57,275 bases of DNA from Spartobacteria bacterium (lineage in GTDB: Bacteria > Verrucomicrobiota > Verrucomicrobiia > Chthoniobacterales > UBA10450), in assembly GCA_003169975.1 (NCBI GenBank), contig PNAA01000049.1:1-57275 (forward strand), written 5' to 3'. Under the pieces are notes generated by a model that searched no databases, had not been told where the DNA came from, and was given only the letters and a program-made list of their open reading frames with translations. Made by a program: the position numbers and the translations under genes. Numbering within the stretch: the first letter of the stretch is position 1; every line of letters begins with the position of its first letter. Shown one piece after another: positions 26,895 to 46,359 of this stretch.

Positions 26895-28529
26895 ATGACT
26901 GCGCGCGCCGACTCCGCTACTCGCAACGCCCTGCGCGAGAGGTGCGAAGCCATTCTCCAGGAGGAAGAAATCCTGCGCGAAGGCGGGGGCAAAGTGGGCC
27001 AGGATCGGCAACGCAAGATGGGACGGCTCCCGGCCCGCGAGCGCATCGCGCACCTGCTCGATCGCGGTGCGACCTTTTTCGAGATCGGGTTATGGGCCGC
27101 CTACAAGATGTACGATCAGTGGGGCAGCGTGCCCGCGGCCGGCGCGGTCGCCGGCATCGGCAACGTCGCCGGCATCCCGTGCATGATCATAGCGAACGAT
27201 GCCACGGTGAAAGCCGGCGCTTTTTTTCCCCAGACCGCGAAGAAGCTCATCCGCGCGCAACGGATCGCCTTCGAATGCGCGCTGCCGATCATCTACCTGG
27301 TCGATTCCTCGGGCGTTTTCCTCCCGATGCAGGACGAAATTTTCCCGGATGAAGACGACTTCGGCCGGATCTTTCGCAATAACTCTGTCATCTCCGCGGC
27401 GGGCCTTCCGCAGTTCGCGGCGATCATGGGAAACTGTGTCGCTGGCGGCGCCTATCTACCCGTGCTCTGCGACAAGGTGCTCATGACCGAAGGCAGCGGC
27501 CTCTACCTCGCCGGGCCGTCGTTAGTCAAAGCCGCCATCGGCCAGATCGTCGACGCGGAGGAGCTCGGAGGCGCCCTGATGCATGCGGAAGTCAGCGGCA
27601 CGGTCGACTTCCATGAGAAAGATGATCCAGCCTGCTTGAAACGTTTGCGCTCGCTCGTCGCGCATCTGCCGGAAGCCGAGGCCGCGAAGAAGAATGGCGC
27701 GGAGAAAAAGACCACCGCTCCGGCCAACGACCCAAATGCGGTTTACGATTTGATCGATCTCGAAGGCCAGAAGCAATACGACGCCCGCGATCTACTCGCG
27801 TCGATCATCGATGCGGATTCGCTCGATGAATACAAAGCCGATTATGGTAAGACGCTCGTCACCACTTATGCCCGCATCGGCGGACATTCGGTCGGCATCG
27901 TGGCCAATCAGCGCCACCAGGTCCGCACCAAAAAAGCCGGGATTCAGATGGGTGGGGTGATTTACGCCGATAGCGCCGACAAGACCGCGCGCTTCGTCAT
28001 GGATTGCAACCAAACTGGATTGCCGATTATTTTTTTCCAAGACGTGACCGGCTTCATGGTCGGGCGCGACGCGGAGCAGAGCGGCATCATCCGCAGCGGC
28101 GCGAAGCTGGTCAACGCGGTCAGCAATTCGATTGTGCCGAAGATCACGGTGGTGGTCGGCGGCTCGTTCGGTGCCGGCAACTACGCGCTCTGCGGCAAGG
28201 CGTATGATCCGCGTTTTCTGCTCGCTTGGCCGAATGCGCGTTATGCCGTGATGGGCGCGGCGCAGGCTTCCGACACCGTTTTCTCCGTCCTCGCGCGCTC
28301 CCGCTCGCGCGGCGACCAGAAGGCGTCACCCGAGGAGCTCGAACAACTCCGCGCCAAAGTGAAGGAAACCTACGAAGAGCAAACCGACATTCGTTACGGA
28401 GCGGCGCGTGGCTGGGTCGACGCCGTCATCCAGCCGCACGAGACGCGCGACGCGCTGCTGCGATTGTTAGGCTATGTCGCCCGTCCGATGCCCAAGGGCC
28501 GTTTCCACATGGGTGTGGTGCAAACCTGA
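26895..28529 (+). CDS. Acyl-CoA carboxylase carboxyltransferase subunit (methylcrotonyl-CoA type)
   Basis: 544 aa, full length for the beta subunit. Two crotonase-like halves are visible: GNCVAGGAYLPVL and GSGLYLAGPSLVKAA in the first, and FFQDVTGFMVG, GSFGAGNYALCGKAYDP and NARYAVMGAAQA in the second. The adjacent HMG-CoA lyase-like and enoyl-CoA hydratase genes favour 3-methylcrotonyl-CoA (leucine breakdown) over propionyl-CoA, but the sequence alone cannot settle this. The biotin-carrying alpha subunit is not in the window. It is convergent with the lyase gene, 13 bases apart. Confidence 0.9.
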   Translation: MTARADSATRNALRERCEAILQEEEILREGGGKVGQDRQRKMGRLPARERIAHLLDRGATFFEIGLWAAYKMYDQWGSVPAAGAVAGIGNVAGIPCMIIANDATVKAGAFFPQTAKKLIRAQRIAFECALPIIYLVDSSGVFLPMQDEIFPDEDDFGRIFRNNSVISAAGLPQFAAIMGNCVAGGAYLPVLCDKVLMTEGSGLYLAGPSLVKAAIGQIVDAEELGGALMHAEVSGTVDFHEKDDPACLKRLRSLVAHLPEAEAAKKNGAEKKTTAPANDPNAVYDLIDLEGQKQYDARDLLASIIDADSLDEYKADYGKTLVTTYARIGGHSVGIVANQRHQVRTKKAGIQMGGVIYADSADKTARFVMDCNQTGLPIIFFQDVTGFMVGRDAEQSGIIRSGAKLVNAVSNSIVPKITVVVGGSFGAGNYALCGKAYDPRFLLAWPNARYAVMGAAQASDTVFSVLARSRSRGDQKASPEELEQLRAKVKETYEEQTDIRYGAARGWVDAVIQPHETRDALLRLLGYVARPMPKGRFHMGVVQT

Positions 28530-28542
28530 TCCTCACTCATCG

Positions 28543-29409
28543 TTAGGCGGAAAAATCGCGGCCGATCGAGTCGTTTATCGCCATGACGTTCTCGAGCTGG
28601 CCTCGAATCGACAGTTTTGCGCCGCGCTGCTCGAGGGCCCGGAGAACTTCCTCTGTCGGGATGTTCCCAATGAGCTCATCCTGCGCGAATGGGCAACCAC
28701 CGAGGCCGCCGAGCGCCGCGTCGAAACGCCGGCATCCTGCGTCGTAGGCGGCCAACACTTTCGCCGCCGCTCCCGCGCGGCTGCTGTGCAGGTGAGCGCC
28801 CACTTCGCATTCCCCGCAGTCGTTAGCCGCCTCCCGCAAAACGCGCTGGATCAATTCCGGCTCGGCGAGCCCGACGGTATCCGCCAGCGAGATCGAATCG
28901 ACTCCCAAACGCGCGATCTCCCGCGCCGTTCGTCCCACGCTCTCCTCACTCCACGCCTCGCCATAGGGATTGCCAAAAGCCATCGAGACATAAGCGACCA
29001 TTTCCAGCCCGGCCTCGTCCGCGCGGCGCTTGATCCTTTCCAGGACGGTACGATTTTCCTCCGGCGACTGATTCTGGTTCCGGCGGAGAAAAGTCTCTGA
29101 GGTGGAACAAGGATAGCCCAGGGTGCGGACGACCCCCGTCGCAATCGCGCGCTCCGCCCCTTTTTCGTTTACGACGATTCCAATGATCTCCACGCCATCC
29201 GGCGGCGCGAGTTGTTTGAGCACTTCCTCGCTGTCCGCCATCTGGGGAACCGCTTTCGGCGAAACGAAACTCACCGCATCGATGTGCCGGAATCCGGCCT
29301 CAATCAGCGCGCGCAGGTATCGGACTTTAAGTTCCGTCGGAATCTGCCGTAGAAGGCCCTGCCACGCGTCGCGCGGACACTCGATCAGTTTCACGTTCTG
29401 GTCTGCCAT
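28543..29409 (-). CDS. Hydroxymethylglutaryl-CoA lyase-like enzyme
   Basis: 288 aa from the ATG at 29407-29409. It is a TIM-barrel member of the HMGL family: ECPRDAWQ (the family has PRDG.Q), HIDAVSFVSPKAVPQMAD, YVSMAFGNPYG, SLADTVGLA, HLHSSRAG (metal-binding HxH) and GGLGGCPFA. The Asp-Ala-Trp in place of Asp-Gly at the metal loop is unusual. It would split HMG-CoA into acetyl-CoA and acetoacetate, the last step of leucine degradation. The TAA stop lies in a TCGTTAGGC word (28540-28548). Confidence 0.88.
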   Translation of the reverse strand: MADQNVKLIECPRDAWQGLLRQIPTELKVRYLRALIEAGFRHIDAVSFVSPKAVPQMADSEEVLKQLAPPDGVEIIGIVVNEKGAERAIATGVVRTLGYPCSTSETFLRRNQNQSPEENRTVLERIKRRADEAGLEMVAYVSMAFGNPYGEAWSEESVGRTAREIARLGVDSISLADTVGLAEPELIQRVLREAANDCGECEVGAHLHSSRAGAAAKVLAAYDAGCRRFDAALGGLGGCPFAQDELIGNIPTEEVLRALEQRGAKLSIRGQLENVMAINDSIGRDFSA

Positions 29410-29552
29410 GATCAAAAATTCGCACCGGTCGAGAGAGCGTCATTGCGATCGCGATCCCTGCAAGCCCTGTTTTGCCGTTGCGTTTGTTCGGCGGCCGGCT
29501 TTCGATCTCGTGGGCCCGGCGGATGCCGCTTAAGCTCGAAAAGTAATTCGTT

Positions 29553-30314
29553 ATGCCAAACATCCTCGTTGAAGAAAAAGATTCCCGCACCACGATCCTC
29601 ACCCTCAACCGTCCGGAGCGGCGCAACGCCCTAACGATCGAGTTGATGACCGAACTGGCCACCGCCGTCGAAGCCGCCGCGGCCGATGAAAAGCGACGCA
29701 TCCTCATTTTGCGCGGCGCGGGCAAGGCCTTCTGCGCCGGACTCGATCTGCAGGAAACCACCGAGATGGAAAAAGCGCATCGCTCCGCCGAGATGGTGGC
29801 GAGAACCTTGCGCACGATCAGCGAGACGCGCCTTATCACGATCGCGCAGATCCACGGGGCCGCCGTCGCGGGCGGCGCCGGTCTGATGTCGGCCTGCGAT
29901 TTTGTCCTCGCCGTCGCGCACACCAAGATCGGCTATCCCGAAGCCAAACGCGGTCTGGTCGCCGGTCTGGTGATGACCTTTCTCCGCCGCCAACTGCGCG
30001 AGCGCGATCTTCGCGAACTGCTCTTCACCGGCGATTTGATCGGCGCGGAACGCGCCCGGGAGATGGGCCTGGTCAATCGGGTCGTCGCCCCTAACGAGTT
30101 GGAAAACGAAACGCAAAAGCTGACGACCGCCATTTTGCAGGGCGCTCCCGGGGCGATCTCCAATAGCAAACGTCTCATCGAGGAACTCTGGTCTTCCTCG
30201 GTAGGCGAGGACATCGATCTGGCGCTGCGTCATCACATGGAAGCGCGCGAGTCGGCCGAAGCCAGGGAAGGCATCGCCGCCTTCCTCGAAAAACGCCCGC
30301 CAAACTGGACATGA
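29553..30314 (+). CDS. Enoyl-CoA hydratase/isomerase family protein
   Basis: 253 aa with the crotonase fold. LNRPERRNALT, GKAFCAGLDLQET (oxyanion hole), IHGAAVAGGAGLMSACD and the C-terminal VNRVV segment are clear. The position next to the lyase and carboxylase suggests a methylglutaconyl-CoA hydratase role. The first catalytic Glu position is occupied within GGAGLMSACDF, so hydratase activity needs care. It is divergent from the lyase. The stop overlaps the next gene start (ATGA). Confidence 0.87.
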   Translation: MPNILVEEKDSRTTILTLNRPERRNALTIELMTELATAVEAAAADEKRRILILRGAGKAFCAGLDLQETTEMEKAHRSAEMVARTLRTISETRLITIAQIHGAAVAGGAGLMSACDFVLAVAHTKIGYPEAKRGLVAGLVMTFLRRQLRERDLRELLFTGDLIGAERAREMGLVNRVVAPNELENETQKLTTAILQGAPGAISNSKRLIEELWSSSVGEDIDLALRHHMEARESAEAREGIAAFLEKRPPNWT

Positions 30315-36252: not shown

Positions 36253-36315
36253 CCCGTCGGCTCTTGGGGCAGGCTGGAAGGCTGCCCGCCGAGTCAGGCG
36301 GGACGGCTGACTTCC
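36211..36315. repeat. Perfect 28-base inverted repeat at convergent gene ends
   Basis: Bases 36211-36238 are the exact reverse complement of 36288-36315. Between them are two smaller hairpins (CCGACGG with CCGTCGG, and GGGGCAG with CTGCCC). The arms encode the last residues of both the SGNH hydrolase and the E1-E2 fusion, so the repeat is partly coding. It is probably a bidirectional terminator. Confidence 0.9.
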
Positions 36316-39300
36316 GGGGAAGCGACCGCGCGCTGTTCGGGAATCGCGAAGCTCTCGATCAGCTCTTTGATCTTGTGCACGAAGTTCGCCGCCCCGGCGC
36401 CGTTCACGACCCGGTGATCGAAAGTGAGCGAAAGTGTAATCACTTCCACGCTCTGCGCCTTCTTTCCGTTAGGCGAAAGTTCGTGGTGCGCCGCGCCCAC
36501 AAACAGCGTCCCCACCGAAGGCGGAACGACGATCGGCGCCGCTGCCTTGACGCCAAACGCCCCCAGGCTGCTGATCACCACCGGCGCGTTCATCGCGTCG
36601 ACCCGCCCGGCGCGCGTCGCCTCCACGGTCTCGTGGTAGCGCCTGACGAAATCCGGCCAGTCGAGTTTGTTTGCTTCCGTGATGACCGCGGTCGACAGCC
36701 GGTCGTCGTCGAGGGAAACCGCCACGCCCAGATCGAAGTCTTCGTTCTCGACAATCCGATCGTCGTCCAGCATGAGGCTGCGAAAAGCGGCATGTTTTTC
36801 CATTGCCCTAACGACCGCCCACGCGACCATGACCGAAGGTGATGGCGCGTTTTTGTCCCTGGATTTCTTGGCCGCTTCCCGCGCCTTTTTGATTGCGTCC
36901 CAGCGCGCATCGATCTGCAGATTCGCGGGCACAACCCGTCCCAGTTTGCGCGTGATGGTGGGCGAGAGCGCGGGCTCTCGCGCGATCGTCATCCTGCTTT
37001 CGGCGACGGGCACAGCGGGAACCCTTTCGCGCATTGAAACCTCGGCGGCGGCTTCCATTTGATCATCGAGCGCGGCGCCTTCGGTCTCAATCGTGCCCAG
37101 CTCCTGTCCGATCTCGACCGTGTCGTCGATCTTGGTTTTCCATTCGCCCATCGTGCCGGCGAACGAAGACTCGATCGGGTAAACGGCCTTGTCGGTTTCG
37201 ACTTCGCATAAGGCATCGTCGAGCTCGATGCGGTCGCCGGGCTTCTTCAAAAGAGCCACCACCTTGGCGGAGCGAATGCCTTCGCCCATGATTGGGACGA
37301 CGATCTTTTGTGTGCGCGCCGCCGTCTTCGTTGTGGCCGGGGGCGTTGACCCCGGCTTCGCCTGCAGTTCGACTTTGGGTCGGCCGGGTTCGGCGCCCCC
37401 AGTTACAACGCGCTCGCTCCGCATCTCAATCGAGCGCTCGATCGCCCTAACGATTCGCTTCACATCCGGCAGCGCGGCATATTCGTAGATCGGGTTGTAG
37501 CCGATCATGACGTTGCCTTTGCTGACCAAAATCGGCGGGCTGATCATCGCCTCCCAGAGTTCCGCCTGGCCGGTGACATGCGAGATGATCATCTGGCCGA
37601 CGCTGCAATTCTCGGTGTCCTCCTGCACGACGACGAGCCGGCCGGTTTTGCGCACCGATTCCTCAATCGTTGCGTGATCCCACGGCGCGATCGAACGCAG
37701 ATCGATCAGCTCGACGCGCGCTTTGTCGCCCAGCTTTGCCAGGGCCTCGATCGATTTCTCCATCGTGTTGCCCCACGCGACCACCGTCACATCGGAGCCC
37801 GGGCGGTGGACCCGTGCTTTGCCTAACGACACCGCGCGAATCGGTTTGGCGGATTCGTGTTCCGCCCAAAGGAGGTGCTTCGGGATGAGAACAAAAGTCG
37901 GATCCTCGCAATGCATCGCGGTCCAGAGCAGGCCAGCGGCGTCCTCGGGGTTGCTCGGGATGGCGATGTTGATCCCGGGATAATGGGCGAGGGGAGCTTC
38001 ATTCGCCTGACTGTGCCAGAGGCTGCCGCCCGGGAGATAGGCGCCATAAGGGGCGTAGATCACGAGCGGGCAGGTCCAGGTGCCAAACGAGCGCCAGCGC
38101 AGGTTACAGAGATTGGTGACGAGCTGATTCCAGGCCGGGCCGATGAAGTCGATGAATTGCAATTCAAAGACGGGGCGTTTCCCATAGGAAGCAAGCCCGC
38201 AGGCGACGCCGAGAATGGTCGACTCCGCCAGCGGCGAATTGAATACCTGCTCCGGGAATTCGGTCGAAAGTCTTTGGGTAAGACGAAAAACGCCGCCTTT
38301 GGGATCCTCGATGTCTTCGCCGAAGAGGATGCGGCCCGCATCCTTGGCGAGGCCGGCGCGCAACGTCTGGTTCACGACATCGCCGATGCGGTATTTGCCC
38401 GCCGGCAATACCTCGTCGGCGAGCCGCGGAAGTGCGCCCGTGACCTGCAACTCCAGTTCGCTAGCGGCGGGATCCTGCTCGCGCTCAGCGTCGATGAATT
38501 CCTGCCGGATGCGCTCTTTGATTTCCTGATCGAGTTTTGCGTACTCGTCGGCGCTGAGCACACCTTCCTCGATCAGGCGATCTTTCCATTTCGTCAGGGG
38601 ATCGCCCTCCGGGAGATTTTCGATCTCTTCGGCGGACCGATAAAGCTTGTGATCATCGGAGCTGGTGTGGCTCGAGAGGCGCTCCATTGTGACCCAGAAA
38701 AAGACAGGGCCCCGGCCCGCGCGGAGGTGCGCCATCGCCTCCTGGCCGGCCTCGTAGACCGCCGGCACGTCGGATCCGTCGATCTGCCGCCAGTCGTTAG
38801 GCTGAAGAACGTCGAGCGCGAGCGGATTGGTTCGTCGCGTCGGACTGCTGATCCCGTAGCCGTTGTCCTCGACGATGAAGAGAACCGGAAGTTGTCTCTC
38901 CTTGGCAAAGCAAACGGCCTCGAAAAAATCGCCCTGCCGCGTCGCGGCATCGCCGACCGTGGCGATGACGAGATTGGGTTTCGCGTCGAGCTTGATGCCC
39001 CAGGCGATTCCGCAGGCGGGGAGAAGTTGCGCGCCGGTCGGGGTCGGGACGCTCCAGATGTGGCGCGCAGCGTAGCTGTAATGCGACGGCATTTGCCGGC
39101 CGTGGCTTTGCCCTTTGCTCTTGGCAAAATAATCGAGCGCCAGCTCCCGCGAGGTGACGCCGCGCCCGAGGATCAGCGCGCGGTCGCGATAGTAGCCGCA
39201 GACGTAATCATCCGGCTCGCTCGCAAACGAGATTGCGGCGAGCGCTTCATGCCCCATGCCCGAAACGTGAAAGTGGCCCTTTCCCTGGCGATTGAGGTTT

Positions 39301-39377
39301 TGCTCACGCAAGTCGCCGTGCCGGCTCTCGAGCAGAATCGTCAGGAGGCGAAGTTGATCTTTCTTGCTCAGAGCCAT
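36294..39377 (-). CDS. Fused 2-oxoacid dehydrogenase E1-alpha/E1-beta/E2
   Basis: 1027 aa, three normally separate proteins in one chain. Residues 1-300 are E1-alpha (GHFHVSGMGHEA; thiamine diphosphate site GDAATRQGD at 142-150 with EDNGYGIS). Residues 325-655 are E1-beta (FGEDIEDPKGGVF, FNSPLAESTILG). Residues 690-763 are a lipoyl domain with the lipoylated Lys730 in ETDKA. Residues 800-1010 are the E2 acyltransferase core. I see no peripheral subunit-binding domain between lipoyl and core, as if fusion made it unnecessary for E1. At the active site H988 is present (DHRVVNG), but position 992, usually Asp, is Asn. Substrate may be branched-chain 2-oxoacids, fitting the leucine genes nearby; pyruvate is possible. 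E3 is not in the window. Confidence 0.93.
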   Translation of the reverse strand: MALSKKDQLRLLTILLESRHGDLREQNLNRQGKGHFHVSGMGHEALAAISFASEPDDYVCGYYRDRALILGRGVTSRELALDYFAKSKGQSHGRQMPSHYSYAARHIWSVPTPTGAQLLPACGIAWGIKLDAKPNLVIATVGDAATRQGDFFEAVCFAKERQLPVLFIVEDNGYGISSPTRRTNPLALDVLQPNDWRQIDGSDVPAVYEAGQEAMAHLRAGRGPVFFWVTMERLSSHTSSDDHKLYRSAEEIENLPEGDPLTKWKDRLIEEGVLSADEYAKLDQEIKERIRQEFIDAEREQDPAASELELQVTGALPRLADEVLPAGKYRIGDVVNQTLRAGLAKDAGRILFGEDIEDPKGGVFRLTQRLSTEFPEQVFNSPLAESTILGVACGLASYGKRPVFELQFIDFIGPAWNQLVTNLCNLRWRSFGTWTCPLVIYAPYGAYLPGGSLWHSQANEAPLAHYPGINIAIPSNPEDAAGLLWTAMHCEDPTFVLIPKHLLWAEHESAKPIRAVSLGKARVHRPGSDVTVVAWGNTMEKSIEALAKLGDKARVELIDLRSIAPWDHATIEESVRKTGRLVVVQEDTENCSVGQMIISHVTGQAELWEAMISPPILVSKGNVMIGYNPIYEYAALPDVKRIVRAIERSIEMRSERVVTGGAEPGRPKVELQAKPGSTPPATTKTAARTQKIVVPIMGEGIRSAKVVALLKKPGDRIELDDALCEVETDKAVYPIESSFAGTMGEWKTKIDDTVEIGQELGTIETEGAALDDQMEAAAEVSMRERVPAVPVAESRMTIAREPALSPTITRKLGRVVPANLQIDARWDAIKKAREAAKKSRDKNAPSPSVMVAWAVVRAMEKHAAFRSLMLDDDRIVENEDFDLGVAVSLDDDRLSTAVITEANKLDWPDFVRRYHETVEATRAGRVDAMNAPVVISSLGAFGVKAAAPIVVPPSVGTLFVGAAHHELSPNGKKAQSVEVITLSLTFDHRVVNGAGAANFVHKIKELIESFAIPEQRAVASPEVSRPA

Positions 39378-39479
39378 CGTCAGGTGTTGCGAGTTAAGGG
39401 TCGCGTTAGTTGAGAGAGCGAACCGGAACCGCGTCCATTCTCTACTCTCCGCGCTGAAGTCTCAACTTCCGTTCTACCC

Positions 39480-45450: not shown

Positions 45451-46359
45451 TCATATTCCCGCTGTCGCGAAAGCCTGCTCGAATTTCGCGTCCTCTTTGC
45501 GCCGCATGAAAGCGGCAGTTATTTCAACTACATGGCGCAAATCCCACCGTTCAATCTCAACGCCTGCGGCTATGGCTGGCGTAGTTCCGAGCGTGGTATG
45601 CTTGCGGACAAAGTTGTAAACGCCTAGGTGCAGCGCGACCGCCAGCTTGTGCGTCGCCAAGTCCTTGCTGTAGCCAAGTCCCTTCCGCTGAAACCGCTTT
45701 AGTTCCTGCCGCACAGTCAGGAATGCGCGCTCAATATGGCTCGTGGTTAGGTTTTGAAGGTTTGGCGAGCCTACTACCGCCTTGCGCTCCGACGTAACCA
45801 GCTTACGAACGCCTTCATTCTTTCCATAACGCGCCAGCGTGCCATCTAGCAGGATCGGATCACCGAAAATCTTGGTTTCCGTTCCGTAGCTGTAGCCTTC
45901 GTAACCGAAGTGAGTTCGGATGTGCGCGGGATATGCGGGTAAGTTGTCGGTTGCGATCTGGACAGGGCCGCTCACCCGCTTACTCACGTCCTCGACGAAT
46001 GAATAACCAGTCCACCAGTCGCGCTTCCCGATCTTGTGGGAAAAGATAAGTTTGGTGTCAGAGTCGATGCAGGCCCAGAGCCAAAAGTCCCCGCGCTCGG
46101 GGTCTTTCCTGTTCGCCATACGGCCAGCGTGACAGCCGACGTATTGCCATTGCTCATCCATCTCGATTCGGTTGCAACGCAAGTCTCGAAACTCCGAATC
46201 CATGTAGTCCGCAAAGGCAGCGCCCGTCTCTCGGATGATGCGCGTAATGACATACTTTTCTGTCCTGAGCATTCGGGCGATTGCTCGAATCGGAGTTCCC
46301 TCGCAGAGTGCCGCTAGAACGTAAGCCTGTTTTTCTTTCGAGAGTCTTCGGTTGTCCAT
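45451..46359 (-). CDS. IS1-family DDE transposase (element A)
   Basis: 302 aa, single ORF. An N-terminal helix-turn-helix (residues 5-45) precedes a DDE core with D68 in IEMDEQWQYVG, D138 in ATDNLPAY and E210 in TSHIERAFLTVRQ. Then come KGLGYSKDL and YNFVRKHTTLGTTP. These match the IS1 InsB landmarks (DEQWGYVG, TDGWPLY, RIERHNLNLRQH). No frameshifted InsA/InsB arrangement is present. It is about 70 percent identical by eye to the transposase of element B, so the two are related but distinct elements. The promoter is in the divergent region at 46375-46436. Confidence 0.93.
   Translation of the reverse strand: MDNRRLSKEKQAYVLAALCEGTPIRAIARMLRTEKYVITRIIRETGAAFADYMDSEFRDLRCNRIEMDEQWQYVGCHAGRMANRKDPERGDFWLWACIDSDTKLIFSHKIGKRDWWTGYSFVEDVSKRVSGPVQIATDNLPAYPAHIRTHFGYEGYSYGTETKIFGDPILLDGTLARYGKNEGVRKLVTSERKAVVGSPNLQNLTTSHIERAFLTVRQELKRFQRKGLGYSKDLATHKLAVALHLGVYNFVRKHTTLGTTPAIAAGVEIERWDLRHVVEITAAFMRRKEDAKFEQAFATAGI

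Follow-up and report, generated by a model that had tools for sequence, protein, structure and literature searches.

The window analysed here (57,275 nucleotides of Spartobacteria bacterium contig PNAA01000049.1) encodes a real and conserved E1/E2 dehydrogenase in which E1-alpha, E1-beta, a lipoyl domain and the E2 core form a single chain, and which lacks the peripheral subunit-binding domain (PSBD) that docks E3. We consider it probable, at roughly two chances in three, that this fusion is a 2-oxoacid dehydrogenase of branched-chain type in one chain and that a shared E3 re-oxidises its lipoyl arm in trans. With every part but E3 fused and the dock lost, this bacterial complex makes it testable whether 2-oxoacid dehydrogenases need E3 docking, and it suggests that a free, shared E3 can suffice.

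Organization of the fusion gene

The gene and its parts are as follows.

36294..39377, minus strand: full-length fusion gene encoding 1027 aa, with the stop codon at 36294-36296; ORF and Pfam
38448..39365, minus strand: E1-alpha, residues 5-310, the ThDP-binding half; Pfam E1_dh, nearest PDB chain Thermus branched-chain E1-alpha 1um9
37422..38399, minus strand: E1-beta, residues 327-652; Pfam Transket_pyr and Transketolase_C, nearest PDB chain 1um9_B
37317..37421, minus strand: linker 1, residues 653-687, disordered; AF2 and alignment
37080..37316, minus strand: lipoyl domain, residues 688-766; Pfam Biotin_lipoyl and AF2 strands
37188..37190, minus strand: Lys730, expected lipoylation site, invariant; alignment
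36987..37079, minus strand: linker 2, residues 767-797, the place where a PSBD would be; profile searches, AF2 and alignment
36342..36986, minus strand: E2 catalytic core, residues 798-1012; Pfam 2-oxoacid_dh and AF2
36414..36416, minus strand: His988, catalytic His of the DHR motif, invariant (46/46)
36402..36404, minus strand: Asn992, equivalent of A. vinelandii Asn614, invariant (46/46)

The open reading frame starts with ATG, and its product matches five Pfam families, all scoring far over cut-off and in the order E1-alpha, E1-beta, lipoyl, E2: E1_dh (residues 22-304, 5e-53), Transket_pyr (332-503, 5e-24), Transketolase_C (519-603, 5e-24), Biotin_lipoyl (691-763, 2e-14) and 2-oxoacid_dh, the E2 catalytic domain (816-1010, 1e-34). 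The single 1027-residue E1-alpha/E1-beta/lipoyl (Lys730)/E2 chain described in an earlier sequence-only reading is thus borne out, and it is encoded on the minus strand. None of the curated cut-offs of the 25 NCBIfam models listed is reached, so the fusion is a divergent member. Its E1-alpha part has the loop SSHTSSDDHKLYR around His237, and Lys730, which sits in an ETDKA motif, is invariant in 46/46 clade-A homologues (see below). An AF2 model of the protein, built with 56 sequences, has a mean pLDDT of 78 and a pTM of 0.63; Foldseek against the PDB groups it with E1 and E2 structures, the best 50 rows including branched-chain E1-beta of Thermus and of human and the core of E. coli E2p.

Two other frames in the window are worth mention. 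A 518-codon open frame at 37857-39413 (+) lies on the strand opposite the fusion's E1 part and probably represents a shadow frame in coding DNA rich in G+C, and an ORF at 45451-46359 (-) resembles an IS1-type transposase by eye.

Conservation and distribution

A match to the fusion at E <=1e-100 is present in 52 of 61 genomes of the same family, a few of these being pieces on short contigs, and in all 28 same-family genomes with completeness of at least 90% and contamination of at most 5%. Across a sample of the phylum, 64 of 387 genomes match at E <=1e-100, and these fall into 28 with the same architecture (clade A, identity at least 47%) and 36 that are more distant (clade B, 34-41%). At least 80 loci in a named genome collection match as well, the best 80 bearing the titles Chthoniobacterales, Spartobacteria, Opitutaceae, Opitutia, Opitutus, Didemnitutus, Lacunisphaera, Udaeobacter and unclassified Verrucomicrobia. 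Two alignments were used: A1, with 46 of 55 extracted clade-A proteins, and A3, with 56 sequences (55 of 64 full-length proteins from the best 80 loci, plus the window's own). All five expected Pfam families listed above are found in 46/46 clade-A homologues, and the survey of homologues that had been suggested as a check therefore finds the architecture recurring. An assembly artefact is ruled out by full-length homologues in many independent genomes; matches lie also on contigs of about 4 Mb (G187, G289 and G438). Among the open-access papers listed, no title or abstract opening describes the triple fusion or an E1-lipoyl-KASIII fusion (see below), and either may still have appeared in print.

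Absence of a PSBD and supply of E3

The E3_binding profile (PF02817) has no match at E up to 1 in the fusion protein or in any of the 46 clade-A homologues, and in a genome-wide scan its three matches over cut-off are three other E2s. In the AF2 model the stretch from the lipoyl domain to the E2 core contains no helix, and residues 655-686 and 768-796 have pLDDT <50. Both linkers are unconserved: at the 90% level none of the 35 columns of linker 1 and none of the 31 of linker 2 are conserved in A1 (together 0/66), and the values in A3 are 1/35 and 0/31. A hidden PSBD is ruled out by these searches, the model and the linkers together, and the absence of a binding domain, previously noted by inspection, is upheld.

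Lipoamide dehydrogenase scores over the TIGR01350 cut-off in 24/24 genomes examined. Two of the eight clade-A genomes (G011 and G013) contain exactly one E3 match at E <=1e-30, which adjoins an E2, so that a single E3 there would serve all complexes. The window genome has two full-scoring E3 frames of 477 and 479 aa, leaving no room for an extra domain, and it is these, together with the lone E3 of G011 and G013, that lead us to propose E3 in trans. The other six clade-A genomes have at least three TIGR01350 matches, some under cut-off, which would allow for a dedicated E3. Neither an E3 nor an adaptor was recognised beside the fusion among the neighbour clusters of the best 80 loci (ORFs of at least 100 aa, some clusters annotated).

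The E2 core and Asn992

The E2 motif of the fusion reads FDHRVVNG and includes His988 and Asn992. D987, H988, N992 and G993 are invariant in 46/46 sequences of A1, Asn992 is present in 56/56 of A3, and the residue following the catalytic His is Arg in 41 and Lys in five of the 46. Canonical E2s of clade-A genomes, three from the window genome and ten from five others, have Asp at the Asn992 position in 13/13 cases, and Asn is thus a mark of clade A. The same residue is found in Azotobacter vinelandii E2p (1eaa), which reads DHRVINGAAAARF with Asn four residues past the catalytic His; PDB 1dpc differs from 1eaa in the searched stretch solely by Asn to Asp. A 1995 report by Hendle gives Ser558, His610 and Asn614 in its title as catalytic residues studied. 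The Ser558 position is occupied in clade A by Ser or Thr, with the pairs SS, TS and ST in 24, 19 and 3 of 46 sequences, and a passage in a paper on bovine complexes refers to Asn614 as the aspartate equivalent (PMC9681731).

The sequence-only reading had asked whether the E2 step is normal, and a doubt on account of Asn is not supported: Asn as a sign, by itself, of an inactive E2 is ruled out by its invariance in clade A and by the wild-type Asn614 of the crystallised A. vinelandii E2p. As to whether Asn is standard in active members, it does occur in one of them, with Asp being commoner. Judged by sequence, the core as a whole diverges at many positions that are otherwise fixed in canonical E2s; those fixed differently in clade A include Trp853 (Lys in canonical E2s), Ala897 (Pro), Val951 (Asn) and Thr957 (Ile).

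Which keto acid is used

Five of the eight clade-A genomes (G187, G289, G207, G337 and G375, all outside the window's family) have three E2s each, namely the fusion, a SucB-type and a PDH-type. The SucB-type E2 is over cut-off in 5/5, and the PDH-type E2 is over the TIGR01349 cut-off of 445 in 2/5 and scores 427-444 in the others. With the other E2s being only of these two types, the fusion there would by elimination serve another keto acid. In the window genome, contig 58 carries a PDH set whose E2 and E1-alpha are over equivalog cut-offs, and contig 13 a SucB with an adjoining lipoamide dehydrogenase.

A further E1a/E1b/E2 set, mostly under NCBIfam cut-offs, is present on contig 22 of the window genome (G000, L089:4546-7925 (+)); its E2 has a weaker PSBD match, and genes upstream resemble succinate dehydrogenase by eye. 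This set, rather than the fusion, could be the branched-chain enzyme of the window genome.

Three genes within the window recall leucine breakdown and support, without proving, a branched-chain role.

26895..28529, plus strand: acyl-CoA carboxyltransferase-like gene, under curated cut-off
28543..29415, minus strand: HMG-CoA lyase-like gene, 214.9 bits, cut-off 246
29553..30314, plus strand: enoyl-CoA hydratase family gene

Among the best 80 loci, carboxyltransferase and enoyl-CoA hydratase homologues lie near the fusion at 15 loci each, as do FadJ-like genes at 15; across the fusion from these are two genes read by eye as threonine synthase (32 loci) and aspartokinase (26). The PDB scores of the E1-alpha part separate only weakly, with 129 bits for the Thermus branched-chain enzyme versus 120 bits for a Gram-positive PDH; the loop HTSSDD of the fusion aligns with HSSADD of the Thermus branched-chain E1.

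Proposed mechanism and relation to known complexes

We infer the substrate, the role of CoA as acceptor, the action of E3 in trans and the assembly from E1 dimers and E2 trimers as follows. The E1-alpha/E1-beta part would decarboxylate the keto acid with ThDP and acylate the lipoyl-Lys730 arm, which would swing on the two disordered linkers to an E2 core in the same assembly; there His988, together with Asn992 and the Ser/Thr pair, would hand the acyl group to CoA. Because E1 is covalently joined to a lipoyl domain and an E2 of its own, no PSBD is needed to dock E1. E3 docking would then have been given up, the cell-wide E3 common to PDH and OGDH re-oxidising the arm in trans through only brief contact with the lipoyl domain. 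The assembly may consist of E1 dimers linked via E2 trimers, as in OdhA, and is possibly a hexamer.

The branched-chain 2-oxoacid dehydrogenase complex (Thermus 1um9, Pseudomonas putida 1qs0) matches the fusion in its E1 folds, in the lipoyl domain and in the core and catalytic motif of E2, but its E1-alpha, E1-beta, E2b and E3 are separate chains, whereas in the fusion E1-alpha, E1-beta and E2 share one chain with one lipoyl domain. A. vinelandii E2p has a PSBD. Like the fusion it has the Asn described above, and unlike the fusion it is a separate E2. Two-in-one E1 proteins, for example the 695-aa frame of G378, have their E1-alpha and E1-beta halves fused as in clades A and B, but the length of this frame leaves no room for a lipoyl or acceptor domain; it lies nearest to these clades in the tree, on a long branch. 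The actinobacterial two-in-one 2-oxoglutarate dehydrogenase OdhA/KGD also carries E1 and an E2 core on one polypeptide, and a passage in PMC10415282 describes dimeric E1 and trimeric E2 as setting its assembly, which closes into a hexamer. In OdhA the E2 core precedes a one-piece E1o and there is no lipoyl domain, the lipoyl group being supplied in trans, whereas the fusion begins with an alpha/beta-type E1 and has its lipoyl domain in cis. A missing dock is also seen in the eukaryotic OGDH E2o, which according to passages in PMC9974300 has a disordered, Ala/Pro-rich loop instead of a PSBD, with an adaptor (MRPS36) proposed to recruit E3; that complex has separate subunits, whereas the fusion is one chain, with no adaptor recognised among its neighbours at the best 80 loci.

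Alternative interpretations

The eukaryotic example makes it conceivable that E3 docks stably on the fusion too, via a surface of E1 or E2 other than a PSBD, or via a small adaptor like MRPS36: E2o likewise does without a PSBD and has an adaptor proposed for E3 (as passages in PMC9974300 put it), and linker 2 of the fusion is similarly disordered. We nonetheless regard stable docking as rather unlikely, since the neighbourhood of the fusion shows no conspicuous small gene (best 80 loci; linked ORFs of at least 100 aa) and the 66 linker columns include none that is conserved. Less likely still is that the fusion is a pyruvate or 2-oxoglutarate dehydrogenase and not a branched-chain enzyme; its best NCBIfam matches are indeed PDH E1 models, all far under their cut-offs, but separate PDH and SucB-type sets are present in the window genome, and PDH-type (two over cut-off, three just under) and SucB E2s in 5/5 other clade-A genomes.

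It is also very improbable that the E2 core is impaired, or that it uses an acceptor other than CoA so that the product is not an acyl-CoA. The divergence of the core from canonical E2s is in keeping with such a change, as is the presence of a KASIII domain, which has a different acceptor, at the same place in clade B, and Ala at the Asn992 equivalent of E. coli E2o leaves 9.5% activity according to a passage in PMC5986005. Against this, D987, H988, G993 and the Arg/Lys after the His are kept in 46/46 sequences, Asn is the natural residue of a crystallised E2p that has been studied as an active enzyme, and genes beside the fusion handle acyl-CoAs.

A sister clade ending in KASIII

In clade B all 12 aligned proteins have E1_dh, Transket_pyr, Transketolase_C, Biotin_lipoyl, ACP_syn_III and ACP_syn_III_C (clade-B loci are L066:4635-7961 (-), L067-L074, L076-L078, L226-L235 and L237). 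The KASIII C-terminal family lies within the fusion frame in 16/16 clade-B genomes examined, each of which encodes a separate KASIII as well. In a tree built from the E1 part (35 rows, 677 columns), clades A and B each form one group (100/100) and separate jointly from the other rows (100/98), of which five are half-length and one forms a long branch. No genome among 115 (11 with A, 16 with B) has both fusions.

Twenty-three clade-B KASIII sequences were put forward for alignment, and with L068 left out for want of the PHQAN anchor, the Cys, His and Asn of the triad are all kept in 22/22. Trp at the position of E. coli Trp32 and Arg at that of Arg151 are each found in 0/22; a passage in PMC4606726 places the adenine ring of CoA stacked between these two residues, with E. 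coli FabH superposed. The ordinary FabHs of clade-B genomes (eight loci fetched, one without a frame, n=7) keep Arg in 7/7 and Trp in 6/6, one frame starting too late. Retention of the triad with loss of the residues that stack CoA adenine suggests direct lipoyl-to-KASIII transfer. The lipoyl arm would be the acyl donor, delivering an acyl group, probably a branched one, directly to the cysteine of KASIII, and fatty-acid or polyketide synthesis would thereby begin without acyl-CoA. If so, clade B would start fatty-acid synthesis from a keto acid by a swap of the acceptor at the end of the lipoyl arm. We give even odds to the more general idea of E1-alpha/E1-beta/lipoyl as a chassis that donates acyl groups and whose acceptor domain can be exchanged, being a PSBD-less E2 yielding acyl-CoA in clade A or KASIII in clade B, with E3 in trans for both.

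The clade-A genome G227 carries a second, distant chain (L218:3236-6388 (-), 31% identity), which by eye consists of E1-alpha/E1-beta followed by a C-terminal lipoyl domain with no acceptor domain.
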